A stretch of DNA of 64,000 bases. It comes from Lutibacter oricola. Lineage in GTDB: Bacteria > Bacteroidota > Bacteroidia > Flavobacteriales > Flavobacteriaceae. The notes beneath the pieces were generated by a model. That model did no database searches. It was given only the letters and a program-made list of their open reading frames with translations, and was not told where the DNA came from. The stretch covers positions 744,001-808,000 of the forward strand of contig NZ_FNNJ01000001.1 in NCBI RefSeq assembly GCF_900106565.1, read 5' to 3'. This document shows, one piece after another, positions 42,667 through 60,502 of this stretch. Each line of letters starts with the position of its first letter. The first letter of the stretch is position 1. The position numbers and the translations under genes were made by a program.

Positions 42667-43527
42667 TTATCGTTGTACTTCTTTATGATAATTTACCTTA
42701 AATTCTTTAGGAGAAATACCGTGTTTTTTCTTAAAAGATCTATTAAAATTAGAGAGAGAATTGAAACCTGCAGAAATTGAAATTTCATTAATAGACATAT
42801 TAGTTTCAGTTAAAAGTTTTGTTACTACGCCTAGTCGATAATCCATTAAATAACTTGTAAAACTTTGACTAGTTCGCTTTTTAAAATAATGACTAAATGC
42901 AGATTCAGACATATTTACCATTTCTGCAACTTTAGAAAGTTTAATTTCTTGATCGTAATTATTTATAATGTAATTGGTAATTAAAGAGATTCTTCTACTT
43001 TCTCTTTTTTGACTATAATTAGCACTTGGAGGGCTACTTAATACTTTAATATCTTTTGATGTAGATAATATATGTAATATTTCAAGAAATGTTAAAAGCG
43101 ATTTAAAATCAGTATTGTTTTCAATTGATTGAACTTTTTTACTAACAAGTTTTTTAGTAGGGTTCGAAAATGAGATTCCACGTTTTGATAGCTCCAAAAG
43201 TTTCTTAATGTCTTTTGAAACAGAATAGCTCATAATTTTAGAATGCAAAAAGTGTTCTTGAAATTGTATAGTAATAACGCCAGAGTTACTTACAACTTTA
43301 TCAGATTTCCATAAATGCTTTAACTCTGGGCCTAGTAAAGTTAAATCGGTTTCTTCACATTGTTCAACCGAATCTCCAACAGTTCTACTACCTTCAAAAT
43401 TGGTTATTAAAGTCAATTCATATTCATTATGAAAATGCAAAGGATAATCAAATAATGCATTTTTGTGTTTTAAAATCACAAAAGGATCATCAGACTTTAT
43501 TGGTGTTATTTCTTTAATAGATTTCAT
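42667..43527 (-). CDS. AraC-family transcriptional regulator of the PUL
   Basis: 286 residues. An N-terminal cupin-like sensor domain (FDYPLHFHNEYELTLI; LLGPELKHLWKSD) is followed by two helix-turn-helix motifs at about 185-280 (IKLSKVAEMVNMSESAFSHYFKK; SINEISISAGFNSLSNFNRSFKKKHGISPKEF). It is soluble, so it would sense a cytosolic sugar, probably a mannose-containing breakdown product. It is transcribed away from susC with a 229-bp shared control region; regulation of the PUL is inferred from this layout. Confidence 0.9.
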   Translation of the reverse strand: MKSIKEITPIKSDDPFVILKHKNALFDYPLHFHNEYELTLITNFEGSRTVGDSVEQCEETDLTLLGPELKHLWKSDKVVSNSGVITIQFQEHFLHSKIMSYSVSKDIKKLLELSKRGISFSNPTKKLVSKKVQSIENNTDFKSLLTFLEILHILSTSKDIKVLSSPPSANYSQKRESRRISLITNYIINNYDQEIKLSKVAEMVNMSESAFSHYFKKRTSQSFTSYLMDYRLGVVTKLLTETNMSINEISISAGFNSLSNFNRSFKKKHGISPKEFKVNYHKEVQR

Positions 43528-43756: not shown

Positions 43757-46700
43757 ATGAATAAACAAAATCGAATATGGCTCTTATCTGCTATTTTGAT
43801 TGTTCTTTGTGTAGGAACAATAAATGCACAAATTAATATAGGTGGTGTGGTTACCGATCAACTCGGTTTGCCAATTCCTGGTGCAAATATTTTAGAGAAA
43901 GGAACTACTAACGGAGCAACAACAGATTTCGACGGTAAATTCCAATTAGCTGTGGCTAGTAAAAAATCTAGTATTGAAGTTTCTTTTATGGGGTTTCAAA
44001 CAGCAGTTCTTCAAGTTGGAGACAAAACTACTTTTACAATTTCTTTAAAAGAAGATGTTGCAGCTTTAGATGAAGTTGTGGTTGTTGGGTATGGTTCAAT
44101 GAAAAAAAGTGACCTTACAGGTTCTGTAACTTCTGTAAAAATGGATGATATTCCATCTAAACCTTCAAATTCAATTGATGGGTTGCTGCAAGGTCAAGTA
44201 GCAGGTGTACAGGTAATTACTTCTTCAGATGATCCTGGAGCTGGAGCAACTGTAAGAATTAGAGGTGGAAGCTCTTTAAATGGAGGAAACGATCCTTTAG
44301 TTGTTGTAGATGGTTTTCCTATTGGTTATGCGGGTGATTTAAAACAAATTTCACCTCAAGATATTGCCTCTATGGAAGTGTTGAAGGATGCATCAGCTTC
44401 TGCAATTTATGGTTCTCGTGGTGCAAATGGTGTAATTATGATTACTACTAAAAAAGGAGCCAAGCACACAACCGAAGTTACTGTGTCTCAACAAAACACG
44501 TTTTCAAGCTTTACTTCAGACTTAAATTTATGGAGAGACCCTGTTTTAATGGCTGAATTAAGTAATGAAAGTCGTATAAATGGTGGTTTTGTTCCTTTAT
44601 ATATTGGAACTGAAGATGCAAATGGAGTTTATTACCCATCTTTAGGAGAATTAAAAGACGGTAGTTGGTCGTACAATACAAAATGGGACGATGTTGTGTT
44701 TAGAAGCCCAGTTTCAAACAATACAAACTTAGCTATTCGTAGTCAAACCGATAAAACTCAATTTAGCTTAAGTACAACTCACTTTACACAAGAAGGTGTT
44801 TATATTGAAGATGATTATAAAAAATTAAACATAAACCTAAATGTAATTCATAAATTATACGATGGTAAGGTATCAGTTGGAGGTAATGTAATTTATTCAA
44901 AAGGAGATAGAACTAATAATAGTGATTTAGCTTACTGGAGAAATCCTATTTTCCCTGTTTATGAAAATAACGATCCAACACAGGATTATTTTTTAGCAGG
45001 ATCTCAAGATTATTCTCATCCTATTGCTTTGGTAGAAAATAGAACCAATACTAATGAATTTAAAGATTTTATTGGGTCGGCTTTTGTTGATATTCAATTA
45101 TTACCTTCATTAAAATTAAAAACGCAATTAAACTATAAAACAGGGCAATCTATTACAGATTATTACAACCCTAAAATTTATACAGAAGACGGAACTTTTA
45201 ATAATGGTTCTGGAGGAATTAATAATTGGGATAGTGAAGAAACTGTTGCTGAAACATTTTTAACTTATAATAAAATGTTTAACGAAAAGCATAAGTTTAC
45301 TGCAATGGGAGGTTTTTCATACCAATACTATGAAGCTCGTTCATCAGATTTGAAAGCGTACGATTTTTTAAATGAATCTTTAGGAAACGGTAACTTAGCT
45401 GCAGGTAATCCAGAAAAACAAACTGTAGCCAACGCTTATACAGAAACGGTAATGTATTCTGGTTTAGGTCGTTTCAATTATGTTTATGATGATAAGTATA
45501 TGGCAACATTTACAATGCGTGCCGATGGTTCTTCAAAATTTGGAGATAATAATAAATGGGCTTATTTCCCTTCTGGAGCATTGGGATGGAAAATGCATCA
45601 AGAAGATTTTATTAAAGATTTAGATGTATTTAATGAATTAAAATTACGTGCAAGTTTTGGTATATCAGGTAACCAAGGTATTTCTCCCTACTTAATTAAT
45701 AGTAGATATGGACAAGATCAATACTATGTAAACGGTGGGTGGCAAACTGCTATTGGACCTGGTTATGTTGTAGGTTGGGATAGTCAAACTGGTAAAAAAA
45801 CTTGGGGAGGAATTCCTAATCCTGATTTAAAATGGGAGACTACAAGACAGTTTAACATTGGTGGAGATTTTGCATTTTTTGACAGAAAATTAAAAGTAAC
45901 ATTAGATTATTACAATAAATATACTACAGATTTATTGCGTGAACGTTTATTGTCACCTTCATCTTCATATGATAAAATGTGGGTTAACGATGGTGAAATA
46001 GAAAATCAAGGAATTGAATTAACAATTAACGGAACTATTTTTAAGAATGAAGATTGGAGCTTTGGAGGTTCATTAATGTTTTCAAAAAATAAAAATGAAG
46101 TTGTTAGTTTAGGTAACGAATTATCTTCAGGTTTAACTACAGATGCTTTAACAGGTATAAAATATGAATTTTCTGGAAGTACTGTTGAAGCTTTTCGTGC
46201 CATACCAAATATTTTAGCAGTTGGACAACCAATAAATGTATTCTATGGTTACAGAGTAGATGGTATAGTACAAAGCGAAGCTGAAGGTTTAGCTGCTGGT
46301 TTAACAGGAGATTTAGCTCAGCCAGGTGAGTTTAAATATGTAGATTTAAATGAAGACGGTGTTATTGATGAAGATGATCGTTCTATTATTGGAGATCCAA
46401 ATCCAGATTTTATTGCAAGTTTAAACTTACAAGCTAGTTATAAAAACTTTGATATTTCAATGTTCTTTAACGGTAGTTTTGGACAAGATATTTTTAATAC
46501 CAAAAGTTTTGGTGAAGCAGGAAATATGCCTTTACGTTGGACACAAGATAACCCAACAAATAGTTACCCAAGTTTAAGAGATGGCCGTACAAATTATATG
46601 TCTGATTGGTACATTGAAGAAGGAAGCTTTGTTCGTTTGCAAAACCTTTCTATTGGATATAATCTAAATGATATTGATTTGCCTTGGTTAAAAAGAGGAA

Positions 46701-46840
46701 GAATATTTGTAAATGGAACTAACTTATTTACAATTACAGATTTTAAAGGATACGATCCAGAAATTGGAACTGATGGAATCTACTGGGGTGGATATCCAAA
46801 ATTAAGAAACTGGACTTTAGGTGTAGAATTCACATTTTAA
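43757..46840 (+). CDS. susC-like: SusC-like TonB-dependent outer-membrane transporter
   Basis: 1027 residues. A signal peptide (about 1-24, ending NAQ) is followed by a carboxypeptidase-D-like domain (INIGGVVTDQLGLPIPGANI, about 25-100), a TonB box DEVVVVGYG, a plug domain (LLQGQVAGVQV, VRIRGGSSLNGGNDPLVVVDGFP, ASASAIYGSRGANGVI) and a 22-strand barrel ending NWTLGVEFTF. It imports oligosaccharides of the target glycan with the SusD lid, powered by TonB-ExbBD. It is the first gene of the PUL. Confidence 0.97.
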   Translation: MNKQNRIWLLSAILIVLCVGTINAQINIGGVVTDQLGLPIPGANILEKGTTNGATTDFDGKFQLAVASKKSSIEVSFMGFQTAVLQVGDKTTFTISLKEDVAALDEVVVVGYGSMKKSDLTGSVTSVKMDDIPSKPSNSIDGLLQGQVAGVQVITSSDDPGAGATVRIRGGSSLNGGNDPLVVVDGFPIGYAGDLKQISPQDIASMEVLKDASASAIYGSRGANGVIMITTKKGAKHTTEVTVSQQNTFSSFTSDLNLWRDPVLMAELSNESRINGGFVPLYIGTEDANGVYYPSLGELKDGSWSYNTKWDDVVFRSPVSNNTNLAIRSQTDKTQFSLSTTHFTQEGVYIEDDYKKLNINLNVIHKLYDGKVSVGGNVIYSKGDRTNNSDLAYWRNPIFPVYENNDPTQDYFLAGSQDYSHPIALVENRTNTNEFKDFIGSAFVDIQLLPSLKLKTQLNYKTGQSITDYYNPKIYTEDGTFNNGSGGINNWDSEETVAETFLTYNKMFNEKHKFTAMGGFSYQYYEARSSDLKAYDFLNESLGNGNLAAGNPEKQTVANAYTETVMYSGLGRFNYVYDDKYMATFTMRADGSSKFGDNNKWAYFPSGALGWKMHQEDFIKDLDVFNELKLRASFGISGNQGISPYLINSRYGQDQYYVNGGWQTAIGPGYVVGWDSQTGKKTWGGIPNPDLKWETTRQFNIGGDFAFFDRKLKVTLDYYNKYTTDLLRERLLSPSSSYDKMWVNDGEIENQGIELTINGTIFKNEDWSFGGSLMFSKNKNEVVSLGNELSSGLTTDALTGIKYEFSGSTVEAFRAIPNILAVGQPINVFYGYRVDGIVQSEAEGLAAGLTGDLAQPGEFKYVDLNEDGVIDEDDRSIIGDPNPDFIASLNLQASYKNFDISMFFNGSFGQDIFNTKSFGEAGNMPLRWTQDNPTNSYPSLRDGRTNYMSDWYIEEGSFVRLQNLSIGYNLNDIDLPWLKRGRIFVNGTNLFTITDFKGYDPEIGTDGIYWGGYPKLRNWTLGVEFTF

Positions 46841-46849
46841 TTTCAGAAG

Positions 46850-48388
46850 ATGAAAAAAGCATTTACAATAATAAAAGAATTGAAAATGAGACAAATAAAA
46901 AATATAATAATGGGATTAACCTTGGTACTAGGTTTTGTGTCCTGTGAAAGTTTAGATGTAGAGCCAAAAGGATTCTATTCTGATGAGAATTTCTATAAAA
47001 CAATAGAAGATGCAGAAGCTTCAATGTTATATGCATATGATGGTTTAACGCAGGTAAGCTACGCGCCAGTTACTTATTATTTAACTGAGTTAGCTAGTGA
47101 TAACTGTATTGTAAAACCAGATGAAGGAGCAGATGCTCAAGCGTTTGTAAACTGGGAAGTTACTTCTCAAAATCAATTATTAACTCAATATTACAGATCT
47201 TGCTATATTGCTATTAATAGAGCAAATGCAGTAATTGAGAACGTGGAAGGAAGAGGTTTTAACGAAAATGATGAGAACCGTTTATTAGGTGAAGCCTTGT
47301 TTTTAAGAGCTTACAATCATTTTAACGCTGTAAAAGCATTTGGATTGGCTCCGTTGCAAACGTCATTAATTGATAAGTTAGATGAAACTACAGCTTCTTT
47401 ACCTGCAGATATGCAAGTGGTATACGCGTTTTTAATTAGCGATTTAGAAAGAGCAATAAATTATTTAGAAGTAAATAGAGTTGTTGGTCGAGTAGATAAA
47501 ATTGCAGCACAAGCATTGCTGTCTAAAGTATACTTATTTGCAGCTTCAGCAAAAGAAAGCGGAGTTCCAAAATATGAAACAATTTTAGAAAGTGTAGAAA
47601 ATTTATATGCAAAAGCTGCTCAATATTCAGGAGATGTTTTATTTAATCAAGGTGAATATAGCCACGATTTAAATCTTCAAAATATTTACAATGTTGAAAT
47701 GCCAAACGGACCAGAACATATTTTCATATTATCTATGGATAGTTCAGGAACCGCTGAAGGTGATTATTCTAAATTATCAAAATATTTTATTCCTTGGATT
47801 GGTGGAGCTACAGTTTACCTGAAAAATATAGACGATAGCTTCTCTCCAACACACGATGGTTGGAGCGTTTTTCAAACTACAGATGATTTATTTACAGCTT
47901 ACAATACAGATGATTTACGTAGAAATAATTTATTTGTTTCAGAAGTTTTTGATGAAACAGGAGCTTCTTTAGGAACTACAGGAGATGGTGTTGTTGCTTA
48001 TCCGTTTACAAGAAAGTATATCGACCCTAATTTTGAAGGAGATAAAACAAGCACTCGACCTTATTTATTACGTTATTCAGATATTCAATTAGTATATGCA
48101 GAAGCTGCTGCAAATGCAGAGGGTTTAGTTCAGTATAACAATATTAGAAATAGAGCTGGAGTTAGTGAGTTAGCTGATTTAAGTGGATTGTCAAAAGAAG
48201 AATTTAGACAATTAGTAATTGAAGAGCGTCAAAGAGAATTAGCATATGAAGGAGATCGTTTATGGGATTTAAGACGTACAAATACAGTGCAGGCTAAAGT
48301 AACTCAGGCAGCAGGTTTATCACCAGAGGCAGTAGCGTTTTATCCAATTCCACAACGTGAAATAGATTTAAACCCAAACATTAACTAA
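46850..48388 (+). CDS. susD-like: SusD-like outer-membrane glycan-binding lipoprotein
   Basis: 512 residues as given. A lipoprotein signal ends VLGFVSC; translation from the internal ATG at 46886 would put the cysteine at position 20, which is more typical, so that start is also credible. The body matches SusD/RagB: ENRLLGEALFLRAYNHFNAVKAFG in the TPR scaffold and EERQRELAYEGDRLWDLRRT with FYPIPQREIDLNPN near the end. It forms the surface lid on the SusC barrel and binds the glycan. The gap from susC is 9 bp. Confidence 0.95.
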   Translation: MKKAFTIIKELKMRQIKNIIMGLTLVLGFVSCESLDVEPKGFYSDENFYKTIEDAEASMLYAYDGLTQVSYAPVTYYLTELASDNCIVKPDEGADAQAFVNWEVTSQNQLLTQYYRSCYIAINRANAVIENVEGRGFNENDENRLLGEALFLRAYNHFNAVKAFGLAPLQTSLIDKLDETTASLPADMQVVYAFLISDLERAINYLEVNRVVGRVDKIAAQALLSKVYLFAASAKESGVPKYETILESVENLYAKAAQYSGDVLFNQGEYSHDLNLQNIYNVEMPNGPEHIFILSMDSSGTAEGDYSKLSKYFIPWIGGATVYLKNIDDSFSPTHDGWSVFQTTDDLFTAYNTDDLRRNNLFVSEVFDETGASLGTTGDGVVAYPFTRKYIDPNFEGDKTSTRPYLLRYSDIQLVYAEAAANAEGLVQYNNIRNRAGVSELADLSGLSKEEFRQLVIEERQRELAYEGDRLWDLRRTNTVQAKVTQAAGLSPEAVAFYPIPQREIDLNPNIN

Positions 48389-48401: not shown

Positions 48402-50096
48402 ATGAAAAAAATATTTAATATATGGCTTATTGTATTAGCAATATTTGCGGTTGCTTGTACAGAAAATCCTCTAGAAGATGTAGAGGGAACTGGTTGGAAA
48501 AAAGAGCGTAACATTGTTTCAATTTTAGTTGAAGGTCAAATAGGTACGGCCGTTGTTAATCGTAATTTTGATGAGGCTAAAATTACAATTTATGCTAAAT
48601 ATGAAAACATAAGCGACATTGCTAATGTTGAAATTAAAAATATAGAACTTTCTTATGGTGCAACAACAGTAAATGAAGTAGGAACAACATTAGATTTTAC
48701 TTCAGGAACTTCAAGTATTTCGGTTGTTTCTGGTGCAGGCGAAACATTAACTTGGGAGGTAACGTTAAACCCATTTAAATCAGATTTAGAAGGTGTTTGG
48801 TACGTTGGAGACGCACGTATGTATTGTGATATGTTTACCTGGGAAAGCTGGGGATGGGAAAAGAACGAAAGCATTTTTGGGTATTTGCCAGAATTAGGTC
48901 CGGAATTAGATAATACAATTTCTTTTACTGTTGAAGGAGCTGATGAAAATGGTAATCCATTTGGAAATTATGAACATAGCGCAGGTAACGATGGAGAATA
49001 TGGAAACTTTGGAGATGAAGGCAAAGGATGGGATTTTAATGAAAGATTCCGTAAAATACCTACAGGTAGTGGAACTTGGTTGCGCGATTTTGAACGTAAT
49101 AAAGTAATTATTACTGATGAAAATAAAGTAGAACACGAATTAGATCTAGAATTGTTGCCTGACAACAAAGTTTCATTAAAGGCTGCATTACCATATTTAG
49201 CAGACCAATTTAATTGGAATGATACAGATTGGAGTTATGAAGAATTGGCTCATATGTCTAACCCAATGTGGTATGTGTTAACAAAAGAATATACTGAGCA
49301 AACAGGTAATAACATTACATCTTTAGGTGTTGCAAATCAAGTTGGAGATGCTTCAATAGATGTTGATAATAAAACAGTAACGGTTAAAATTGAAGATAAT
49401 GGGGCTGATATTTCAGCAATTGAAATTACAGCTTTAGGAACTTCATATGCAGCAACAGCAGATAAGGCAGTTGGAGAAATGTTAGATTTTTCTACTGGTA
49501 ATTCAACTCAAATAACAGTTACATCTGAAGCTGGAGAAGCAGTTGTGTGGACTGTTAATTTAGAAATAGATATAGATGTTAGTGATATTTCAATAGCAGG
49601 AACTTGGACTATTGGAGAAATAGGAATTTACTGTGACTTATTTACCTGGGAAAGTTGGGGATGGGATAAATCTGAATTATTAAACAATTATTTATCTGGT
49701 GCAAGTAAAGAGTTAGATAATGCTATAACATTTGTTGTTGAAGGTAAAAATGGAGATAATCCTTTTGGAACCTATGAAAATAATGCAGGGTCAGATGGTG
49801 AATTTGGAGATTTTGTATCTGATGATGCAAGTTGGCCAGAAACTGATTTCAATTCTAGATTTAGAAAAGTACCAACTGGAGCAGGAACCTGGGAACTAGT
49901 AGGAGAAACTGTTACAATAACTGATGCTTCTGGAACAGAATATGTTTTAACCCTAGAAGTAAAAACTGAAACAGAAATAGCTTTAACAACAGTGTTACCA
50001 TATTATTCAGAATTATTTAATTGGACTGATACCAATTATAGTTATGAAGAAGTAGCGCATATGTCTAATAAAATGTGGTATAACTTAAGTAAATAA
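48402..50096 (+). CDS. SusE/SusF-position surface glycan-binding lipoprotein with internal duplication
   Basis: 564 residues. The lipoprotein signal ends AVAC (Cys19). Two homologous halves follow: about 30-295 and 302-564. Each has an Ig-like strand-rich module (with LSYGATTVNEVGTTLDF or LGTSYAATADKAVGEMLDF) and a second module with YCDMFTWESWGWEK (141-154) or YCDLFTWESWGWDK (410-423), then RFRKIPTGSGTW or RFRKVPTGAGTW, and EELAHMSNPMWY or EEVAHMSNKMWY. The repeat offset is 269 residues. The exposed aromatic motif suggests carbohydrate binding. I recognise no named family. Its position right after susD suggests a surface glycan-binding protein. Confidence 0.78.
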   Translation: MKKIFNIWLIVLAIFAVACTENPLEDVEGTGWKKERNIVSILVEGQIGTAVVNRNFDEAKITIYAKYENISDIANVEIKNIELSYGATTVNEVGTTLDFTSGTSSISVVSGAGETLTWEVTLNPFKSDLEGVWYVGDARMYCDMFTWESWGWEKNESIFGYLPELGPELDNTISFTVEGADENGNPFGNYEHSAGNDGEYGNFGDEGKGWDFNERFRKIPTGSGTWLRDFERNKVIITDENKVEHELDLELLPDNKVSLKAALPYLADQFNWNDTDWSYEELAHMSNPMWYVLTKEYTEQTGNNITSLGVANQVGDASIDVDNKTVTVKIEDNGADISAIEITALGTSYAATADKAVGEMLDFSTGNSTQITVTSEAGEAVVWTVNLEIDIDVSDISIAGTWTIGEIGIYCDLFTWESWGWDKSELLNNYLSGASKELDNAITFVVEGKNGDNPFGTYENNAGSDGEFGDFVSDDASWPETDFNSRFRKVPTGAGTWELVGETVTITDASGTEYVLTLEVKTETEIALTTVLPYYSELFNWTDTNYSYEEVAHMSNKMWYNLSK

Positions 50097-50108: not shown

Positions 50109-50132
50109 TCCACTTGCTTTAATGCAAGTGGA
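50109..50132 (+). promoter_or_regulatory. Intra-operon hairpin between binding-protein and enzyme genes
   Basis: TCCACTTGC and GCAAGTGGA form a perfect 9-bp stem around a 6-nt loop, 12 bp after the stop of the binding-protein gene. No T-run follows, so it is more likely an RNA processing or stabilising element, or an attenuator, than a full terminator. Its last base is the A of an upstream ATG, which argues for the ATG at 50150 as the start of the next gene. Confidence 0.6.
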
Positions 50133-50149
50133 TGTATAATACTTTAGAA

Positions 50150-51685
50150 ATGAATAAAACAAATATAAAATATATGATTAGCTTTTTATTATCTCTAGTT
50201 CTTGTTTTTACAGCTTGTGAAGATGATGATTTAAATGATAAAATAGCTGAGGTTGTTCAAGAAAATAGAGAAATTACTATTACGAACAAAGTTGTTTCGA
50301 CCAACTTTATTGGTAATGGTGTACAATGGGGAGGTTACGATTTAGTGCCAACCTGGTTAGGTGAAGAAACCTTAAGTGAAGCAGATTGGAATACATTGTT
50401 TAATAGAATTGACTTTATGCGACCACCGTTTTTAAGAATTATGACTAATTCTGGTTGGGCGTACGATAATAATGGAGTGTATGATGAAACAACAAAAACC
50501 ACTTCATTATTTAAAATGTTAGACTATGCACAGAGCAGAAATATTGAAATAACTTATGGAGAATGGGGACACCAATCAACGGGAAATATTAGTGATATTG
50601 ATATGAACTGGATAGCTAATTCAGTAAAATTTTTAAACCATTTAGTTAATGAAAAAGGATACACAGTTATAAAAACCGTAAATATAATTAATGAGCCTAA
50701 CGGAAGCTGGGCTTCAACACAAGGAAACTACGATATTTATAGAGATGTTCAGTTAGCTTATATTGCAGAAATGGCAAACTATTCTTTATCTAATGTTAAG
50801 TTAATGGGACCAGATATTGCTGTATTTAATACTGCAAGTCAAACAGAATGGTTTACAAATACTGAAACAGATTTAGGTGATAATGTTGGTTTATATGATA
50901 TTCACGTATATCCAAAGCAACAATTAGTTCGTAATGGTGAGTTTGCAGAAATGTTAAGAGTCTATAAAGAGAATACTCCAGCAGATAAACAAGTTGTTTT
51001 GGGTGAAATAGGTTTTAAATATGATGCTGTAGATGCTGAACTTAAATTAGAAAATGAAGAAGCAATAGAAAATGATCCATTTGCAGGAGAAGATTCTAAC
51101 ATGATGGTTTATAAAGCATTCTATGGAATTGATATGGCAGATGCATTAATTCAATCTATGAGAGAAGGTTTTTCTGGTTCTTTAGTTTGGAATATGGATG
51201 ACGCAATGTATAACAGTCCAGACAATGGAGATTATCAAACAACTATGTTAAAGCGTTGGGGCTTCTGGAATATTTTAGGTGAAGAATTAATAGGCAATGC
51301 TTCAGATGAAGCTATTCGTCCGTACTTCTACCCAGTATCTTTATTAACACGTTATTTCCCTGCAGGAAGTGATATTTACAATGTAGAATTACCGAATAAA
51401 AAAGGAGTTAGAGCTGTAGTTGGTGTAAATAATGGAAAATATACTATTGCACTAGTTAATTCACATTACACAACTTATGAAATCAATTTAAAATCAGAAT
51501 TTATTAGCTCGGTTACTTTAAATAAGTATATGTACAAATCAAATTCAGATGGTTCATTTGTGGGTGAAGTTGATAGTAATGGTTTTGCTGCTCCTTCAGA
51601 AATTGGAATGAATTTGAATTTTGAAATAGGTGAAAAAATGACACTTGAAGGAGAGTCATTTATGTTATTTACAAATATGGATTAA
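50150..51685 (+). CDS. Clan GH-A glycoside hydrolase lipoprotein (first paralogue)
   Basis: 511 residues from the ATG at 50150. The lipoprotein signal ends FTAC (Cys23), followed by acidic residues (EDDD) that in this phylum often accompany surface export. A TIM-barrel domain shows the clan GH-A signature: INEP with acid/base Glu182 and VLGEIGFK with nucleophile Glu286, plus GVQWGGY, YGEWGHQ and WNMDDAMYN. A small C-terminal beta domain (about 415-511) follows. It is similar throughout to the gene at 52791. I cannot assign a CAZy family; GH5-like is the nearest impression. A beta-mannan-cleaving role is inferred from the locus. Confidence 0.82.
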   Translation: MNKTNIKYMISFLLSLVLVFTACEDDDLNDKIAEVVQENREITITNKVVSTNFIGNGVQWGGYDLVPTWLGEETLSEADWNTLFNRIDFMRPPFLRIMTNSGWAYDNNGVYDETTKTTSLFKMLDYAQSRNIEITYGEWGHQSTGNISDIDMNWIANSVKFLNHLVNEKGYTVIKTVNIINEPNGSWASTQGNYDIYRDVQLAYIAEMANYSLSNVKLMGPDIAVFNTASQTEWFTNTETDLGDNVGLYDIHVYPKQQLVRNGEFAEMLRVYKENTPADKQVVLGEIGFKYDAVDAELKLENEEAIENDPFAGEDSNMMVYKAFYGIDMADALIQSMREGFSGSLVWNMDDAMYNSPDNGDYQTTMLKRWGFWNILGEELIGNASDEAIRPYFYPVSLLTRYFPAGSDIYNVELPNKKGVRAVVGVNNGKYTIALVNSHYTTYEINLKSEFISSVTLNKYMYKSNSDGSFVGEVDSNGFAAPSEIGMNLNFEIGEKMTLEGESFMLFTNMD

Positions 51686-51745
51686 TCTAAAAATAACCAA
51701 TTATACAAGATTAGTTTAAGTAAAAATTTAGGAAAATTGAAGAGA

Positions 51746-52789
51746 ATGAATACTATTGAAAAAAATAGCACAGATTTGGTACGTTTAAAAAAATATGAAA
51801 ACAACCCTATTTTTAGCCCAAACCCTGATAATTACTGGGAAAATATTGTAGTTTGTAATCCTGGTGTTTGGTACGAAAATGGAAAATTTTCAATGCTATA
51901 TAGAGCAGCAGGAGATGATAAAGAACATTATATAAGATTTGGTTTAGCCGAAAGTACAGATGGAATAAACTTTACAAGAGTTTCAGATGAGCCTGTATTT
52001 TCACCAAGTATAGATGGACCAGATATGGGTGGAGTTGAAGACCCAAGAATTGTGAAATTTGGTGATGAATATTACATTACATATGCGTATAGACCATTTC
52101 CTCCAGGTCAATATTGGAAATTTGGACACGATGAAATTTTATTGCCAGAATCTGGTGAAGACACGCCATTAGTGTATAAAAATAATATTGCAAATTCAGG
52201 GTTGGCAATTACAAAAGATTTCAAAAATTACAAACGTTTAGGTAGAATTACAACTTCTAATTTAGATGATAGAGATGTAATTTTGTTTCCAGAAAAAGTG
52301 AATGGTAAATTTGTAATGCTTCACAGACCGAAAGAATGGGTTGGTGAAGGTTACGAAACTGATAAACCAGCAATTTGGATTCGTTTTTCAGACGATTTAA
52401 TGGTTTGGGAAGAGCCAAGTACAATGTTATTAGCAGGAAAAGATGGAACTTGGGAAGAGAAAATAGGAGGAAGCACACCACCTTTAAAAACTAAAGATGG
52501 TTGGTTAATTATTTATCACGGCGTTGAAAACGGTGGTTTAGGTTATTATCGTGCAGGTGCAGCTTTATTAGATTTAGAAGACCCAACAAAAGTAATAGGT
52601 AGATTAGATCATTGGATTTTAGAACCAGAACATGATTACGAAATTGAAGGGTATTACAAAGGTTGTGTTTTTCCAACTGGTAATATGATTATAGATAATA
52701 CTTTACACGTATATTATGGTGCCGCTGATAAACATATTGGTTTAGCAACGTGTGATATTAATGAATTATTAGAAGCTTTAAAAAAGTAA
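51746..52789 (+). CDS. GH130 family beta-mannoside phosphorylase or mannosidase
   Basis: 347 residues from the ATG at 51746 (the longer frame begins with TTG). It is a five-bladed propeller with the GH130 signature GGVEDPR, catalytic Asp99. Further motifs are NPGVWYENGKFSMLYRAA, VILFPEKVNGKFVMLHRP and VYYGAADKHIGLAT. The retained basic residues around MLHRP fit the phosphate-using subfamilies, so a phosphorylase making mannose-1-phosphate is more likely than a hydrolase, but the alignment was not run. There is no signal peptide, so it acts in the cytosol on imported disaccharides or short oligosaccharides. Confidence 0.92.
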   Translation: MNTIEKNSTDLVRLKKYENNPIFSPNPDNYWENIVVCNPGVWYENGKFSMLYRAAGDDKEHYIRFGLAESTDGINFTRVSDEPVFSPSIDGPDMGGVEDPRIVKFGDEYYITYAYRPFPPGQYWKFGHDEILLPESGEDTPLVYKNNIANSGLAITKDFKNYKRLGRITTSNLDDRDVILFPEKVNGKFVMLHRPKEWVGEGYETDKPAIWIRFSDDLMVWEEPSTMLLAGKDGTWEEKIGGSTPPLKTKDGWLIIYHGVENGGLGYYRAGAALLDLEDPTKVIGRLDHWILEPEHDYEIEGYYKGCVFPTGNMIIDNTLHVYYGAADKHIGLATCDINELLEALKK

Positions 52790-52790
52790 C

Positions 52791-54341
52791 ATGAACAAAT
52801 CACTCATCCTAATTATAGTAGTAGCCGTTATAGTTTTGTTTGGTAGCTGTACTGCTGAAAAACAAAAAACCGATATAACAATTTCATTTAACAAAACAGA
52901 TCAATTAGATTTCCCTTTTATTGGTCACGGAGTTCAATGGTCAGCATATCCACACGCAGATTCTGAAGATGCAGAATGGGGATTTTTAATGACTGACGAA
53001 AAATGGAATGAATTATATAAGCGTTTAGATTTTGTAAATCCACATATAATTAGGGTGATGGATATTGCTTCTTGGCGTTACTTTAAAGGTATTGACAAAA
53101 ATAATCAACCAATTTTAGATTTTGAAACTCAAGAAGTAAAAAGTCTTTGCAAGTTATTGGACTATTGCCAGAAAAATAATATTGAAGTATTATTTGGTGA
53201 ATGGGGAGCTCCAGGAATGTGGAAATCAGATAAAAAAACAAATCATATCAATTTAGCGAGTGATAGCAGGTGGCACCAAATGATTTCAGAGTATTTGAAC
53301 TTTCTGATTATTGAAAAAGGTTACACGTGTATTAAATATTACAATTTAGTAAACGAACCTAACGGTTATTGGGCATCTACAGATGGAAATTGGGAAGAAT
53401 GGAAAGAAGGTTATCAAAAATTAAATAAAGTGTTGGTTGAAAAAGGGTTAGATAAGTATGTTACAATGTCTGGACCAGATGCGGTAACTCAGTGGGATCA
53501 TCCAACGCATCCAAAAAAGGCACACGATTGGGTGTATTCAACAGTTTCAGACTTAAATGAGATAACTGGTTTATACGATTTTCATATTTATGCAGATCAA
53601 GAGTTGATTAGAACTGGAAATTTTATCGATTATTTAAAACCATTTACTTCAAAAATTAATGCAACCAAAAAGCCTTTGGTTTTAGGTGAATTAGGAATGA
53701 AGTACAGCGGTGATTTAAAAGAAGAAAACCGAAAAAGAGGCGAGGCAGATCCTTTTGCAGGCCCTGATGATTCATCAATGTTTGTGTACGATTATTTTTA
53801 TGGAGTTGATATGGCCGATGCAGCAATACAAAGTATGTTGGCAAGTGTTGGTGGTGCAATTGCTTGGGATGTAGATGATGCAATGCATACTGTTGGAGAT
53901 TTAGGCCAAAAAGATCAATTAAAAAAATGGGGAATGTGGAATATTTTAGCTGAAGAATTTGGTGATTTAGAAGCTGATAAAACTCCTAGACCTTGGGCTT
54001 ATTCTTGGACATTGCTTTGTAATTTGTTTGAACCAAATTCAACAATTTATGAACCACAGTATTCGGTTGAAAATAAGAGTATTCGTGCAGTAGCTTCAAC
54101 ATTAAATAATAATTTTACAACTGCAATTGTAAACCAGTCAAACTCGATAAAAACAGTGAGTTTAAATTCAGAATTAAATACTTCTAAAGATTTGTATTTA
54201 TATGAATATGCTGAAGAAAACAGACCTGTTAATGAAGATGGCTTTCCAATTGTAACAAAAAAAATAAAAGCAGAAAAAGAAATGATTGTTGAGGTTAAAG
54301 CCAATAGTGTAGTTTTTTTAAGCACAATTTTAATAAAATAA
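52791..54341 (+). CDS. Clan GH-A glycoside hydrolase lipoprotein (second paralogue)
   Basis: 516 residues. The lipoprotein signal ends FGSC (Cys20). The TIM-barrel domain parallels the gene at 50150: GHGVQWSAY, FGEWGAPG, LVNEPNGYWAST (acid/base Glu189), VLGELGMKYSG (nucleophile Glu300), DPFAGPDDSSMFVYDYFYGV and AWDVDDAMH, then a C-terminal beta domain. The two share motifs along their whole length but differ clearly, so they probably have different chain-length or linkage preferences. It starts 1 bp after the GH130 stop, so the two are tightly coupled. Family assignment within GH-A is open. Confidence 0.82.
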   Translation: MNKSLILIIVVAVIVLFGSCTAEKQKTDITISFNKTDQLDFPFIGHGVQWSAYPHADSEDAEWGFLMTDEKWNELYKRLDFVNPHIIRVMDIASWRYFKGIDKNNQPILDFETQEVKSLCKLLDYCQKNNIEVLFGEWGAPGMWKSDKKTNHINLASDSRWHQMISEYLNFLIIEKGYTCIKYYNLVNEPNGYWASTDGNWEEWKEGYQKLNKVLVEKGLDKYVTMSGPDAVTQWDHPTHPKKAHDWVYSTVSDLNEITGLYDFHIYADQELIRTGNFIDYLKPFTSKINATKKPLVLGELGMKYSGDLKEENRKRGEADPFAGPDDSSMFVYDYFYGVDMADAAIQSMLASVGGAIAWDVDDAMHTVGDLGQKDQLKKWGMWNILAEEFGDLEADKTPRPWAYSWTLLCNLFEPNSTIYEPQYSVENKSIRAVASTLNNNFTTAIVNQSNSIKTVSLNSELNTSKDLYLYEYAEENRPVNEDGFPIVTKKIKAEKEMIVEVKANSVVFLSTILIK

Positions 54342-54366: not shown

Positions 54367-55962
54367 ATGGAATATAATTTAGGAATTGTAGACATAACAG
54401 TATTAGTACTGTATTTTATATTTATAGTTTGGTTTGGAATAAAATCTTCTAAAAAAGGAAGTAATTCAACTAAAGATTACTTTCTTGCCGGAAGAAATAT
54501 GACTTGGCCAATAATTGGGTTTTCATTATTTGCCGCAAGTATTTCGAGTACAACTTTAATTGGAAAAAGTGGTGATGCATATTCTACTGGAATTGCAGTT
54601 TTTAATTACGATTTAGTTTCGGTATTGGTAATGGTATTTTTTGCCATGTTCTTTTTGCCGTTTTATATAAAATCAGGAATTTTTACCATTCCTGAATTTT
54701 TAGAAAAACGTTTCGATAAACGTTCAAGATATTACTTTTCATTCATCACATTAATTGGTTCTACATTTTTAGATGCAGCAGGTGCTTTATATGCAGCTTC
54801 ATTATTAATGAAATTAGTTTTTCCAGCATTATCTATAATGGAACTGTCTGTGATTTTTGCCATAATTGTTGCGGCCTATACAATTCCAGGTGGACTTTCA
54901 GCAGCCATTAAGGTAGATTTAATTCAAGGGATATTATTGTTGGTTGGAACCTTTATACTAACATTTTTAGCAATGCAAAATGGTGGTTTAGACTATCTAA
55001 AAGAGTTACTACTAGCTGATGATACAATGATGAAATTGATAAGACCGAATGACGATTCTTCCGTTCCTTGGCTTGGAATGATAGTTGGTATACCTATACT
55101 CGGCTTTTACTTCTGGGGAAACAATCAAATGTTGGTGCAACGTGTGTTAACGGCAAAATCTGTAGACCACGGTAGAAAAGGTATTTTATTAGTTGGGTTT
55201 TTAACAGTTTCGTTAATCTTCATTATTATTTTTCCAGCTGTAATTGGGAAACATTTATTCCCAGGGTTGCCAAAAAACGATATGGTGTATCCTAAATTAG
55301 TTATTGAGCTAATGCCAACCGGATTATTAGGCCTAATGTTGGCGGCAATGGTAGCGGCATTAACATCATCTTTAAGTGCATTGTTAAATTCTGTAGCAAC
55401 ATTATTTACAATGGACTTTTATATAAAATTTAAGAAAAATACATCGCAAAAAGAACAAGTGTACGTTGGTAAGATTGTATCGGTAGTAGTACTAGTTTTG
55501 GCAGTATTATGGGTGCCATTTATTGCAATGTTCGATTCTTTATTAAAATATTACCAAGAAATGCTCACGTACATTGCTCCACCAGTTGTAGCAGTATTCT
55601 TTTTAGGTGTTTTTTGGAAACGTATTAATAAACACGGAGCTTTTTGGGGATTAATGGGTGGTGCATTTGCAGCAGTTACAACGGTATTAGCAAAAGTGTT
55701 TTTTGAATATGAATTATTGGGAGATATTCACTTTTTATTAAAAGTTCCCTTCTACTTTGTGTTTAGTGCTGTTATAATAATTGTTGTTAGTTTAGTATCG
55801 AAACCTGATGATGAAAAACAAATAGCAGATTTTATTTGGACTAAGAAAATTTATAGAGAAGAAACTGAAGAATTGAAAGGAGTTCCAATCTATAAAAACT
55901 TTAGAGTTTGGTCTGTAATTTTAATAGTATTCTGTTTCTTGGTTTTATACATTTATCAATAA
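54367..55962 (+). CDS. Sodium:solute symporter (SSS family), sugar type
   Basis: 531 residues, about 13-14 membrane helices. It has the SSS features: TKDYFLAGRNMTWPIIGFSLFAASISSTTLIG at the first helices, IPEFLEKRFDKRSRYYFS, and AAMVAALTSSLSALLNSVATLFTMDFY near the sodium-site helix. It resembles SGLT-type sugar transporters. In the PUL it would move mannose-containing mono- or oligosaccharides over the inner membrane with sodium, which suits a marine host. Confidence 0.93.
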   Translation: MEYNLGIVDITVLVLYFIFIVWFGIKSSKKGSNSTKDYFLAGRNMTWPIIGFSLFAASISSTTLIGKSGDAYSTGIAVFNYDLVSVLVMVFFAMFFLPFYIKSGIFTIPEFLEKRFDKRSRYYFSFITLIGSTFLDAAGALYAASLLMKLVFPALSIMELSVIFAIIVAAYTIPGGLSAAIKVDLIQGILLLVGTFILTFLAMQNGGLDYLKELLLADDTMMKLIRPNDDSSVPWLGMIVGIPILGFYFWGNNQMLVQRVLTAKSVDHGRKGILLVGFLTVSLIFIIIFPAVIGKHLFPGLPKNDMVYPKLVIELMPTGLLGLMLAAMVAALTSSLSALLNSVATLFTMDFYIKFKKNTSQKEQVYVGKIVSVVVLVLAVLWVPFIAMFDSLLKYYQEMLTYIAPPVVAVFFLGVFWKRINKHGAFWGLMGGAFAAVTTVLAKVFFEYELLGDIHFLLKVPFYFVFSAVIIIVVSLVSKPDDEKQIADFIWTKKIYREETEELKGVPIYKNFRVWSVILIVFCFLVLYIYQ

Positions 55963-55971
55963 ACTTAAATT

Positions 55972-56850
55972 ATGAAAAATATAAAAAATATATTGTTTAT
56001 TGGGTTAGTTTTAATTACAATGAACACGTATTCACAAGATAAGAATTTTCATATTTATTTATGTTTTGGACAATCTAATATGGAAGGTTCTGCAACTATT
56101 GAGGAGCAAGATAAAGTTGGTAACAAACGTTTTAAGGTGTTACAATCTTTAGATTGTGATAATTTAGGATATAAAAAGAATGAGTGGAGAACTGCAACAC
56201 CGCCTTTAAGTCAGTGTTATGTTGGTTTATCTCCAGCTGATTATTTTGGTAGAACTATGGTGAAAAACTTACCAGATTCAATAAAAGTTGGAGTGATAAA
56301 TGTAGCTGTTGGAGGGTCTGATATTAGAATGTTTGATAAAGACTTGTACAAAGATTATTTAGAAACTTACCCAGAAGATTGGTTTACAAAAAAGATTGAT
56401 GATTATGGTAGAAATCCATATAGGCACTTTATTACTTTGGCAAAAGAGACTCAAAAAGTTGGAGTAATAAAAGGAATATTATTACATCAAGGTGAAACGA
56501 ATCAAGATGATGAAAATTGGCCAAAATATGTAAAGGCTGTTTATGAAAATATGCTGAAAGATTTAAACTTGAATGCTAAAGATGTTCCATTATTAGCTGG
56601 TGAAGTAGTTCACGAAGAACAAAAAGGAGTTTGTGCTAGTATGAATCCAATTATTAATAAACTTCCTGAAGTTGTGCCAACAGCTTATGTTATTTCATCA
56701 AAAGGTTGTGAGGTTAGAGACGATATGGTTCACTTTAACTCGAAAGGAGTTAGAGAATTAGGAAAGCGCTATGCTGAAAAAATGCTAGAGCTAAAAGGAA
56801 TTTTTTGTAATACAAAGAAAAAATCTTGTTGTCCTTCAAAAATTAAGTAA
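55972..56850 (+). CDS. SGNH-type carbohydrate esterase (sialate O-acetylesterase-like, DUF303)
   Basis: 292 residues. A signal peptide (about 1-21, ending YSQ) is followed by the block I motif FGQSNMEGS with nucleophile Ser35, a glycine/asparagine block (INVAVGGSDIRMF; LLHQGETNQDD), and the terminal DxxH motif with Asp251 and His254. The fold matches PF03629 esterases, which include acetylxylan and related deacetylases. In this PUL it probably removes acetyl groups from mannose units. The C-terminus is Cys/Lys rich (CNTKKKSCCPSK), which is unusual. It is predicted periplasmic. Confidence 0.88.
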   Translation: MKNIKNILFIGLVLITMNTYSQDKNFHIYLCFGQSNMEGSATIEEQDKVGNKRFKVLQSLDCDNLGYKKNEWRTATPPLSQCYVGLSPADYFGRTMVKNLPDSIKVGVINVAVGGSDIRMFDKDLYKDYLETYPEDWFTKKIDDYGRNPYRHFITLAKETQKVGVIKGILLHQGETNQDDENWPKYVKAVYENMLKDLNLNAKDVPLLAGEVVHEEQKGVCASMNPIINKLPEVVPTAYVISSKGCEVRDDMVHFNSKGVRELGKRYAEKMLELKGIFCNTKKKSCCPSKIK

Positions 56851-56865
56851 TATGTAATTAGGTTT

Positions 56866-56908
56866 AAAAGTATTGATGCAATTTAATTTTTGTGTTGATA
56901 CTTTTTTT
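56866..56908 (+). promoter_or_regulatory. Hairpin in the leader of the GH2 gene
   Basis: AAAAGTAT and ATACTTTT form an 8-bp stem over a long, wobble-paired interior and are followed by a T-run. It sits between the esterase stop and the GH2 start and could be a weak internal terminator or a processing site. The TTG start of the longest GH2 frame is inside it. Confidence 0.35.
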
Positions 56909-56920
56909 AATTTTAAAAGT

Positions 56921-59509
56921 ATGTTTTATAAAAGTATCTATAATCTAAAATTTGTTGTTTTATTTTTGATAATTTCTTCTTGCAACCAATCTCCAAATGT
57001 CATTTCTAAGAAGCTGAATGTTGGTTGGGAGTTTAAATCTGTTCAAGATTCAATTTGGATGAAAGCATCTGTGCCAGGAACAGTACATACCGATTTAATG
57101 GCGAATGGAATTATTGAAGATTCATTCTATAGATTAAATGAAAAAAATCAGCAATGGATTGATAAGCAAGATTGGGAATATAAAACTACATTTTTAGTTG
57201 ATGAGCACCTTCTTAAAAAGGACAAAATTGAACTTAATTTTGAAGGATTAGATACCTATGCAAATGTATATGTAAACGATTCTCTTATTTTGAAAACCGA
57301 AAATATGTTTATCGGTTATACTACAGATTGCAAACAATATTTAAAAGAAGGAAATAATGAATTAAAAATTCTATTCGATTCACCTATAAAAATAGGGCTT
57401 AAAAAAAGAGCTAAATTGGGTTATCAATTACCAAATGCAGTAAATGATCAGTCCGAAAATGGAGGCTTGGGTAAAAAGCAAGTATCTATTTTTAATAGAA
57501 AAGCTGGTTATCATTTTGGTTGGGATTGGGGTCCACGTTTGGTTTCTAGTGGTGTTTGGCAAGATGTAAATTTGAATGCTTGGGATAAAGCAAGTATTAG
57601 CAATGTACACATTCAGCAAAAAAAACTATCTAGTGAAACCGCAAATTTATTAGCAGATATAAAAATTGAAGCTACAGAAAGTTTTGAAACGCCATTACTT
57701 ATTAAAGTAGATTCAGAATTAATTTACGAGAAAAAAATTGAGCTCAAAAAAGGAATAAACAATATTAAAATACCTTTTAATATTGACAGTCCAGAATTAT
57801 GGTGGACTAATGGACTCGGAAATCAAAAATTATATACTATTTCGGTTGAATTAAAAAAATGGAAACAAACTTTAGCTGTTAATTCAAATAAAATTGGATT
57901 AAAAACTTTAAAAGTAGTTCAAGAAAAAGATACTGTTGGAGAAAGTTTTTATTTTGAATTAAATGGAGTTCCTGTTTTTATGAAGGGAGCAAATTATATT
58001 CCTCAAGATGTATTTTTAAGTAGAGTTTCTGTTAAAGATTATGAAGAAACCATTCAAAATATGGTAGATGCAAATTTCAATATGATTCGAGTTTGGGGAG
58101 GTGGAATTTATGAGAAAGAAATTTTTTACGATTTATGTGATAAAAATGGAATTCTAGTATGGCAAGATTTTATGTTTGCCTGCGCAATGTTTCCTGGAGA
58201 TGAAGCCTTCTTAGAAAATGTAAAAAAAGAAGCCGAATACAATGTAAAGCGCTTACGAAACCACACAAGTATTGCACTTTGGTGTGGTAATAACGAAAAT
58301 CTTACAGCTTGGAAAAATTGGGGTTGGATTCCACAAACCTTAAATAGCCAAGGTCAAGAAGTAGTAGACAAAGTTTGGAAAGGTTATACTGATGTTTTTC
58401 ACGAAATATTACCAGAAGTGGTTGAAGAATTTGATAATGATACGTTTTATTGGGCATCGTCACCAACATCTGCAAGAGGTGTAGATGCTACTTTAACTTC
58501 GGGCGATTATCATTATTGGGGAGTTTGGGGACAAAAATCACCATTCTCAACTCTTAATGAATTTATTCCTCGATTTATGTCGGAATATGGGTTTCAATCG
58601 TTTCCAGAATTTGAATCTGTAAAGAAATTTACGGTAGAAGAAGATTGGGATATTTATTCTGAAGTAATGAAATCACATCAGCGTCATTTTTCCGGAAATC
58701 AAAATATTGAACATTATATGAAGCCTTTGTATAAAGACCCAAAGAATTTTGAGTCTTATTTATACGTAAGTCAGTTATTGCAAGCTCGTGGAATGCAAAT
58801 TGCTATTGAAGCTCACCGTAGAAATATGCCTTATTGTATGGGAACATTGTATTGGCAAATTAATGATTGTTGGCCAGTTGCTTCGTGGTCTAGTATAGAT
58901 TATTATGGAAATTGGAAAGCTTCACACTATAAAGTGAAAGACTTGTACAAACCAATTAAATCAATGTTTTTTAAGACAGAGAATGAAATAGAATTACATA
59001 TTATTTCGGACGAATTGGAAGAAAAAACAGCAAAATTAAAAGTGTCTGTAATGGATTTTAAAGGCGTTATATTAAACACTTTTGAAAAGGAAATTGAAAT
59101 AAAACCAAACTCAAGTAAAATCTATTTTAATAATGATTTGGTTAAGTTAGTTTCAAAATACAACAAATTTAATATCTTTATATTTGCAGAGTTAGTTGGT
59201 CTAGAAAATAATGTGTTTGACGAAAGTATTTACTTTTTTGAAATGCCAAATAAATTAGAATTAACAAAACCAACAATAGATATTACTGTTTTAAAAACAT
59301 CAAGTAAAAAGGTTGTTGTTGAAGTTAAAGCAGACGTTTTAGTAAAAGATATTTGCTTTACTGCTCCATTTTCAGGAAGATTTTCAAATAATTATTTTGA
59401 TATGATTCCAAATAAAAAGTATAAAATAGAATTTATTTCAGAAGAAGAATTAAGCCCAAAGAAATTAAAAGAAAACTTAGAGATATTGTCGTTAATTGAT
59501 ACCTACTAA
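56921..59509 (+). CDS. GH2 family beta-mannosidase-like lipoprotein
   Basis: 862 residues from the ATG at 56921. The lipoprotein signal ends ISSC. The order is an N-terminal jelly-roll (WEFKSVQDSIWMKASVPGTVHTDLM), Ig-like domains, a TIM barrel, and C-terminal beta domains. The acid/base Glu459 is in LWCGNNEN and the nucleophile Glu555 in RFMSEYGFQSFPEF, both typical of beta-mannosidases of GH2; AWDWGP-like FGWDWGPRLVS supports this. It releases terminal beta-mannose from oligosaccharides, probably in the periplasm. The longer frame starts with TTG inside a hairpin and hides the signal peptide. Confidence 0.93.
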   Translation: MFYKSIYNLKFVVLFLIISSCNQSPNVISKKLNVGWEFKSVQDSIWMKASVPGTVHTDLMANGIIEDSFYRLNEKNQQWIDKQDWEYKTTFLVDEHLLKKDKIELNFEGLDTYANVYVNDSLILKTENMFIGYTTDCKQYLKEGNNELKILFDSPIKIGLKKRAKLGYQLPNAVNDQSENGGLGKKQVSIFNRKAGYHFGWDWGPRLVSSGVWQDVNLNAWDKASISNVHIQQKKLSSETANLLADIKIEATESFETPLLIKVDSELIYEKKIELKKGINNIKIPFNIDSPELWWTNGLGNQKLYTISVELKKWKQTLAVNSNKIGLKTLKVVQEKDTVGESFYFELNGVPVFMKGANYIPQDVFLSRVSVKDYEETIQNMVDANFNMIRVWGGGIYEKEIFYDLCDKNGILVWQDFMFACAMFPGDEAFLENVKKEAEYNVKRLRNHTSIALWCGNNENLTAWKNWGWIPQTLNSQGQEVVDKVWKGYTDVFHEILPEVVEEFDNDTFYWASSPTSARGVDATLTSGDYHYWGVWGQKSPFSTLNEFIPRFMSEYGFQSFPEFESVKKFTVEEDWDIYSEVMKSHQRHFSGNQNIEHYMKPLYKDPKNFESYLYVSQLLQARGMQIAIEAHRRNMPYCMGTLYWQINDCWPVASWSSIDYYGNWKASHYKVKDLYKPIKSMFFKTENEIELHIISDELEEKTAKLKVSVMDFKGVILNTFEKEIEIKPNSSKIYFNNDLVKLVSKYNKFNIFIFAELVGLENNVFDESIYFFEMPNKLELTKPTIDITVLKTSSKKVVVEVKADVLVKDICFTAPFSGRFSNNYFDMIPNKKYKIEFISEEELSPKKLKENLEILSLIDTY

Positions 59510-59530: not shown

Positions 59531-60502
59531 ATGAAATTGAATTATCCAATTAAATTTAACCCCATTTTAAAAGAAAGAATTTGGGGTGGAGAAAAACTAA
59601 TTACAACGTTTAAAAAAAAATCTGAGAAAGCTAACATCGGCGAAAGTTGGGAAATTTCAGATGTAGAAGGAGATGTTTCTATAGTTTCTAATGGAGCTTT
59701 AAAAGGTAAAAGTTTAAGAGATTTAATAAAAGAATTTAAAGGCGAATTTATAGGAGAAAAAGTTTATAAACAATTTGGAAATGAATTTCCTATTCTAATT
59801 AAATTTATTGATGCAAAAACACCACTATCTATTCAGGTTCACCCAGATAATGAATTAGCAAAAGAGCGTCATAATTCATTTGGAAAAAATGAAATGTGGT
59901 ATATAATGGATGCTGATAAGGACGCTAATTTAATTGTTGGTTTTAATAAAGAAGTTTCTCAGCAAGAATATGTAAAGGCGTTAGATGAAGGTAAAGTTTT
60001 AGAAATTTTAAATTCAGAAGAAATAAAAACAGGAGATACATTTTATATTCCTACAGGTAGAGTTCACGCAATTGGAGCAGGAACTGTTTTAGCTGAAATT
60101 CAACAAACAAGCGATATTACTTATCGAATTTATGATTATGAGCGTGTTGATGCAGATGGTAATCAGCGTGAGTTACATACTGAGATGGCATTAGACGCTA
60201 TAGATTATAAATTATACGATAATTATAAAACAGCTTATAAAGTAAGAGAAAATCAATCTGTCGAGTTAGTACATTCTCCATATTTTAAAACAGATATTAT
60301 TGAGTTAAAAGGAGAACTTGAAAAAGATTATAGTAAACTAGATTCGTTTGTTATTTACATGTGTGTTGAAGGGGCTTTGGAAGTTGATTGCAACGGAGAA
60401 AAAATTCTAATGGAAAAAGGTGAAACTATTTTATTACCAGCAGCTATTAATAGTGTTAATTTAAATTCGGATTTAGCAACAATACTAGAGGTTTATTTAT
60501 AG
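59531..60502 (+). CDS. manA: Mannose-6-phosphate isomerase, type I
   Basis: 323 residues, cytosolic. It converts mannose-6-phosphate to fructose-6-phosphate. The cupin metal site includes IQVHPDN (Gln102, His104) and GRVHAIGAGTVLAEIQQTSDITYRIYDY. It resembles the short ManA form of Firmicutes and Bacteroidota. As the last gene of the PUL it channels the released mannose to glycolysis and strongly supports a mannose-containing substrate. A sugar kinase gene is not in the locus and must lie elsewhere. Confidence 0.95.
   Translation: MKLNYPIKFNPILKERIWGGEKLITTFKKKSEKANIGESWEISDVEGDVSIVSNGALKGKSLRDLIKEFKGEFIGEKVYKQFGNEFPILIKFIDAKTPLSIQVHPDNELAKERHNSFGKNEMWYIMDADKDANLIVGFNKEVSQQEYVKALDEGKVLEILNSEEIKTGDTFYIPTGRVHAIGAGTVLAEIQQTSDITYRIYDYERVDADGNQRELHTEMALDAIDYKLYDNYKTAYKVRENQSVELVHSPYFKTDIIELKGELEKDYSKLDSFVIYMCVEGALEVDCNGEKILMEKGETILLPAAINSVNLNSDLATILEVYL

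Follow-up and report, generated by a model that had tools for sequence, protein, structure and literature searches.

What does a bacterium feed on when it encodes two related glycosidase-like lipoproteins, one on either side of a phosphorylase gene? The question is raised by Lutibacter oricola, in which a stretch of 64,000 nucleotides (contig NZ_FNNJ01000001.1, positions 744,001 to 808,000; the window) carries on its forward strand the genes for GHA1 (50150–51685) and its paralogue GHA2 (52791–54341), with a gene for a glycoside hydrolase family 130 (GH130) phosphorylase (51737–52789, forward strand; PF04041, E 2.3e-57) between them. On balance, we favour the view that GHA1 and GHA2 belong to one uncharacterised family of retaining clan GH-A glycosidases and depolymerise a β-mannan with β-1,3-mannosidic linkages that is probably acetylated.

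Both GHA open reading frames (ORFs) were intact, with an additional in-frame ATG for GHA1 at 50132, 18 bases upstream. The original prediction had described two paralogous lipoproteins with a shared full-length scaffold. The proteins indeed aligned over nearly their full length, with 38% identity by BLASTP (166/436, E 4e-88) and 39% by MAFFT, and each of the seven motifs quoted in that prediction occurred once per protein, in GHA1 and GHA2 alike. The pair also flanks the GH130 gene as described, with gaps of 51 bases on the GHA1 side and 1 base on the GHA2 side. The Glu of NEP was found at the predicted positions 182 (GHA1) and 189 (GHA2), and the Glu of LGE at 286 and 300; the former would act as acid/base and the latter as nucleophile. 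Arg 96, Asn-Glu 181–182, His 252, Tyr 254, Glu 286 and Trp 347 were identical in 92/92 aligned GHA relatives, and because of this identity the likeness of GHA1 and GHA2, judged on residues, is far beyond chance. No third copy was found in the organism's own genome.

AlphaFold2 models of GHA1 and GHA2 had a mean predicted local distance difference test score (pLDDT) of 94.3 and 93.9, respectively. In these predicted models both catalytic Glu residues lie at the C-terminal ends of barrel strands 4 and 7: Glu182 of GHA1 follows strand 174–178 and Glu286 stands at the end of strand 281–287, and Glu189 and Glu300 of GHA2 are placed likewise. This placement agrees with the clan GH-A type first proposed. 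The models consist of a GH30-like barrel with a fused β-sandwich side domain of the GH30 kind; their top fold matches were GH30, and the matches included xylanases and glucuronidases. GH5 mannanases, GH26, GH113 and GH164 were not among the 50 fold matches shown, which excludes nothing.

Despite this fold, GH30 membership was rejected on sequence similarity. Comparison by hhalign gave only 10.4 and 7.8% with the PF02055 set and 39.2 and 23.7% with the PF14587 set, against 99.1% for these two GH30 sets with each other as a positive control; with the PF02055 set, the wider outgroup reached 67.0% and four intermediate sequences 93.5%. Identity to GH30 structures (XynC 3kl0/3kl3, 4fmv) was only 12–14%. 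The GH30 catalytic Pfam models (PF02055 and PF14587) matched none of 82 GHA members, among which there was one PF17189 match (E 0.00068). Neither GH39 (PF01229) nor GH26 Pfam models matched any of the 82, and hhalign values for GH39, from only four sequences, were 0.6% (GHA1), 0.4% (GHA2) and 44.6% (outgroup). After length filtering, the hhalign sets held 13/30 loci for GH5, 21/30 for GH30, 4/7 for GH39 and 5/5 for GH30_2.

By sequence, GH5 is the nearest family. PF00150 matched 43/82 GHA members at E ≤0.001 (best 2.5e-11); within the window pair, GHA2 scored 29.5 bits against a cut-off of 23.5 and GHA1 had no match. The hhalign value between GHA and 13 Bacteroidota GH5 sequences was 96.6%, compared with 98.0% between GH5 and a GH5_7-like set. 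GH5 enzymes have eight invariant residues, including a His at strand 3. Seven counterparts (Arg, Asn-Glu, His-Tyr, Glu and Trp) are the residues identical in all 92 GHA relatives, whereas strand 3 carries GEW with no conserved His; the fused β-sandwich is a further difference from GH5. When a profile of the 82 members was run against the sequences in PDB with an E limit of 10, the 14 entries listed included no convincing relative among solved structures: the best GH5 match was 5fip (E 0.024), and GH26, GH113 and GH164 were absent by name. Thus, the original failure to fit either protein to a named family with confidence still stands: Pfam, PDB and hhalign, as distinct from CAZy/dbCAN subfamily models, did not place the pair securely in any characterised family, and the same comparisons did not put both proteins inside a characterised GH5 subfamily. 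GHA may be a new or deeply branching family, apparently uncharacterised.

The clue to the linkage, absent from the original prediction, comes from the GH130. Among nine Zobellia genomes searched, two carried this GH130. One is Z. uliginosa (G182), whose sequence agrees with locus L053; the second genome consists of one contig of 5,521,712 bases, on which the GH130 gene is followed by genes for a sodium:solute symporter (SSF), a SASA-type esterase, an α/β hydrolase, a TetR regulator and a GH16 enzyme. Two published papers give ZGAL_234 as an α/β hydrolase, ZGAL_235 as a TetR regulator and ZGAL_236 as the κ-carrageenase CgkA (PMC5613140; PMC5698469). Since the gene order matches ZGAL_234–236, counting back makes the GH130 ZGAL_231 and GHA1 ZGAL_230, an identity assigned by synteny and not by the accession's own sequence. 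The window GH130 was closely identical to the protein so placed (73% over 336 amino acids, 609.9 bits). A review lists zobellia_231 as a β-1,3-mannooligosaccharide phosphorylase and calls the physiological function of β-1,3-mannobiose phosphorylase unelucidated (PMC8950772).

Moreover, 33/34 clustered GH130s were 65–98% identical to ZGAL_231 and share the motif DDRDVI(L/I)FPEK; at the site matching Lys199 of BT3780, which confers β-1,2 specificity, the clustered enzymes have Arg, a match inferred by exclusion. The NCBIfam model NF052550 (236.2 bits, cut-off 450) and PDB 9fj8 (203.1 bits), both β-1,2-mannoside phosphorylases, ranked first in their searches. A β-1,2-mannan was rejected as the substrate, given the far higher score with ZGAL_231 and the Arg in place of the specificity Lys. 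Judged by sequence, the window GH130 is thus of the ZGAL_231 type. A lipobox was found in 0/34 GH130s, and no signal peptide was found in the window enzyme, which is hence probably cytoplasmic.

In both GH130-bearing Zobellia genomes, the genes form a run of AraC, SusC, SusD, binding protein, GHA1, GH130, SSF and SASA, in which GHA1 is the only glycosidase recognised; it is for that reason the candidate enzyme on which the GH130 must depend for its substrate. The Z. galactanivorans run (ZGAL_230/ZGAL_231) resembles the window in its GHA1, which is 44% identical, in its gene order up to GH130, in its SSF and esterase, and in its SusC-like protein (54% identical), and differs in having no GHA2, GH2 or isomerase gene. 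If the linkage is read from the GH130 type, ordinary β-1,4-manno-oligosaccharides may be unsuitable for testing GHA1 and GHA2.

The association of GHA with this GH130 was further examined in 397 Flavobacteriaceae genomes, with GHA called at E up to 1e-60 and GH130 at ≥68% identity. GHA was present in 7 and GH130 in 11, and all seven GHA genomes carried the GH130 (one-sided Fisher p 1e-12, uncorrected for kinship). Across 395 genomes of the phylum, 3/3 GHA genomes (E 1e-60) also had it. Within the stretches read, GH130 was present at 32 of 42 GHA1 loci (31/41 plus the Z. galactanivorans locus).

A scan of genome contigs with the GHA pair gave 53 loci, or 54 with the window; one of the 53 (L076) had no ORF at E 1e-5. 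L015 (a duplicate of L053) and fragments <380 amino acids were left out of the counts, and L021–L024 and the distant matches L010–L013 (E above 1e-12) out of the tree. Most of the loci are from marine Bacteroidota; more distant relatives came from Verrucomicrobiota, Armatimonadota, Planctomycetota and a single Bacillota bin. The order GHA1–GH130–GHA2 was found in 28/54 loci, with at most two genes separating GH130 from GHA2; two of these 28 triads are neighbours on one Saccharicrinis contig. A quick tree, with support by SH-aLRT only and a long-branch warning, separated the copies before GH130 (43 rows, support 99) from those after it (31 rows, support 87). The two clades and the shared triad order indicate that the duplication preceded the spread of the locus. 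In addition, 20 or more positions are fixed in one clade only. Of the proposal that duplication was followed by specialisation, the old duplication around GH130 holds, and specialisation is backed by these positions and by the lipoprotein signals described below; the suggested division into endo and exo action is unproven.

Individual loci showed further features. In L040, L041, L042 and L059, an arylsulfotransferase-like protein and a short secretion-tail protein are encoded between GH130 and GHA2 (e.g. L042:12793–15577, the one pair examined with Pfam). In Anaerophaga (L051:8714–11991), an ORF with a transposase domain splits the second GHA copy into two parts. Genes for FecR, ECF sigma factors or both occur at L044, L045, L047–L050, L056 and L070, and L050 also has an AraC-type gene. 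In L022 and L023, distant GHA relatives are each accompanied by four SASA esterases, a GH2 and a relative of GH5_7-like mannosidases, and this company is another hint of mannoside substrates.

Acidic residues after the lipoprotein Cys direct Bacteroidota lipoproteins to the cell surface. GHA1 has such a stretch (C-EDDD) and GHA2 does not. When at least two acidic residues at +2 to +6 were taken as the test, it was passed by GHA1 in 29/41 cases, GHA2 in 2/28, SusD in 40/43, the binding proteins in 13/41, GH2 in 1/7 and SASA in 2/10. The Fisher p for the signal difference was 8e-8, a value that is too strong, as the rows are related, and the test is insensitive, as the few binding proteins that pass it show. 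These signals suggest that GHA1 is at the cell surface and that GHA2 is probably periplasmic.

In the window, the pair belongs to ten co-directional genes, from SusC to mannose-6-phosphate isomerase, behind a divergent AraC-type regulator (42667–43527, reverse strand; HTH_18 E 1.4e-21), which was found in 25/28 triad loci. On the forward strand follow a SusC-like TonB-dependent transporter (43757–46840; Plug, CarbopepD_reg_2 and TonB barrel), a SusD-like glycan-binding lipoprotein (46850–48388; SusD_RagB and SusD-like_3) and a putative surface glycan-binding lipoprotein (48402–50096). The last had no Pfam match over the cut-off, and its role is suggested by position; a homologue stands in the same place in 27/28 triad loci. 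It consists of an internal tandem duplication with units ~800 bases apart, and its relatives are either ~300 or ~560 amino acids long. Downstream of GHA2 lie genes for an SSF symporter, proposed as oligosaccharide importer (54367–55962; PF00474, E 1.3e-76; 27/28 triad loci), a probably periplasmic SASA-type carbohydrate esterase (55972–56850; PF03629, E 2.3e-36; a relative in 19/28), a GH2 of β-mannosidase type (56873–59509; Glyco_hydro_2_N2, Mannosidase_ig and Ig_mannosidase; 7/28) and a class I mannose-6-phosphate isomerase (59531–60502; TIGR00218 manA, 161.8 bits, cut-off 116.2; 5/28), all on the forward strand. A GH2 or a GH5 exo-mannosidase relative was present in 12/28 triads.

Sequences, predicted fold, duplication, co-occurrence, GH130 type and signal differences were observed; from them we infer activity, linkage, endo or exo mode, location, direction of transport and acetylation in the following scheme. 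The polymer would be held by SusD and the binding lipoprotein and cleaved internally by surface GHA1, and the fragments would enter through SusC. Trimming in the periplasm would fall to GHA2, the SASA esterase and, in the window locus, GH2. Short oligosaccharides would then be taken up by the SSF symporter, and the cytoplasmic GH130 would phosphorolyse β-1,3-manno-oligosaccharides to mannose 1-phosphate, with mannose-6-phosphate isomerase leading mannose phosphate towards fructose 6-phosphate.

Several points weigh against this scheme. The activity assigned to the GH130 rests on reverse reactions reported by others, and no natural β-1,3-mannan polymer was found in the open-access literature. 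No GH130 was seen at ten of the 42 GHA1 loci; six of the ten are from Sphingobacteriaceae, and there only a SASA-like esterase adjoins GHA1. As for location, Zobellia GHA1 has only one acidic residue after the Cys, and the supposedly surface-exposed binding proteins themselves seldom pass the acidic test (13/41). In addition, a GH5_7-like relative of exo-β-1,4-mannosidases, found in 6/28 triads, hints at β-1,4 links, and L037 has a second GH130, of mannosylglucose phosphorylase type; a mixed-linkage mannan is therefore possible. The same two signs would suit β-1,4-mannanases or glucomannanases of a deep GH5 branch, with a GH130 that only removes an occasional β-1,3-linked mannose. The nearness of GH5 in hhalign and PF00150 searches and a GH26 gene near a distant GHA relative (L017) speak for this reading, which we nevertheless consider unlikely: in the Zobellia locus the GH130 occurs with no depolymerase other than GHA1 beside it, 16/28 triads show neither a GH2 nor a GH5 exo-mannosidase relative in the stretch read, and the co-occurrence partner of GHA is the ZGAL_231 type of GH130. 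An ordinary β-1,4-mannan locus like that of Muricauda was rejected, as GH26, GH27 and GH5_26 are not beside the pair.

A further point against the scheme is that 4 of the 11 Flavobacteriaceae genomes with a ZGAL_231-type GH130 have no GHA, so the GH130 does not depend on GHA. In these four (L188–L191), the 19–20 kb read held GH130 and SSF without GHA or SusC/SusD, beside two or three genes that cluster with sulfatase-like ORFs; in L188, Pfam recognised three sulfatases and the isomerase. GH130 with SSF has the look of a module for scavenging oligosaccharides, with GHA and SusC/SusD as additions that degrade the polymer. The sulfatases, the arylsulfotransferase-like genes of L040–L042 and L059, and the xylanases and glucuronidases of the GHA fold family would also fit a GHA that cleaves another β linkage in a heteroglycan with β-1,3-mannose as one component, either an exopolysaccharide or a glycan that is sulfated or contains uronic acid. 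The 28 triads, however, contain no recurrent gene specific for uronic acid, galactose or glucose, and the window has only mannose-directed genes beside the pair, which makes this proposal improbable. Loci of this kind are known to encode surface glycan-binding proteins that descend from hydrolases. GHA1 might accordingly be a catalytically dead binding protein with GHA2 doing the work, or the reverse, but the two Glu residues, like the Arg, Asn, His, Tyr and Trp around them, are identical in 92/92 relatives of either kind, and we give this idea hardly any credence.

Among described systems, the β-mannan locus of Muricauda sp. MAR_2010_75, also from marine Bacteroidota, shares SusC/SusD and GH130 with the window and uses GH26, GH5_26, GH27 and mannosylglucose phosphorylase, none of which is in the window locus (PMC9860051). 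The GH164 β-mannosidase Bs164 is likewise a clan GH-A enzyme from Bacteroidota; it is active on β-mannosides and is a three-domain trimer (PMC7105311), and it had no sequence match in the GHA profile search of PDB. In the open-access literature (subscription papers were outside the scope), no report of a β-1,3-mannanase or of GHA proteins was found, nor of ZGAL_230, zobellia_230 or ZGAL_231 apart from the review PMC8950772; the search for β-1,3-mannan or mannanase returned only the phosphorylase review and one unrelated match. "Undescribed" is a statement bounded by that literature, with CAZy outside it.

A bolder form of the β-1,3-mannan reading is possible, though we advance it tentatively and with more doubt than confidence: GHA1 would found a new clan GH-A family as an undescribed endo-β-1,3-mannanase, GHA2 would be its periplasmic oligosaccharide-trimming partner, and β-1,3-mannan, pure or mixed with β-1,4 links and possibly from red yeast or algae, would be a common food of marine Bacteroidota. 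The exocellular mannan of Rhodotorula has alternating β-1,3 and β-1,4 linkages. As a substrate it found no support in the literature and was set aside; the Rhodotorula paper retrieved describes an α-glucan (PMC12733683).

The locus places the β-1,3-mannooligosaccharide phosphorylase in a pathway, supplies a candidate enzyme for depolymerisation and so opens a route to the natural polymer. Should GHA1 indeed cut β-1,3-mannan, its specificity would be new, its family new or deeply branching, and the enzyme would serve as an analytical tool for marine glycans; loci at present annotated as cellulase-like or unknown would then merit re-annotation. These findings suggest that marine bacteria of this group use a new kind of mannan-degrading enzyme to feed on a polysaccharide that contains β-1,3-mannose.

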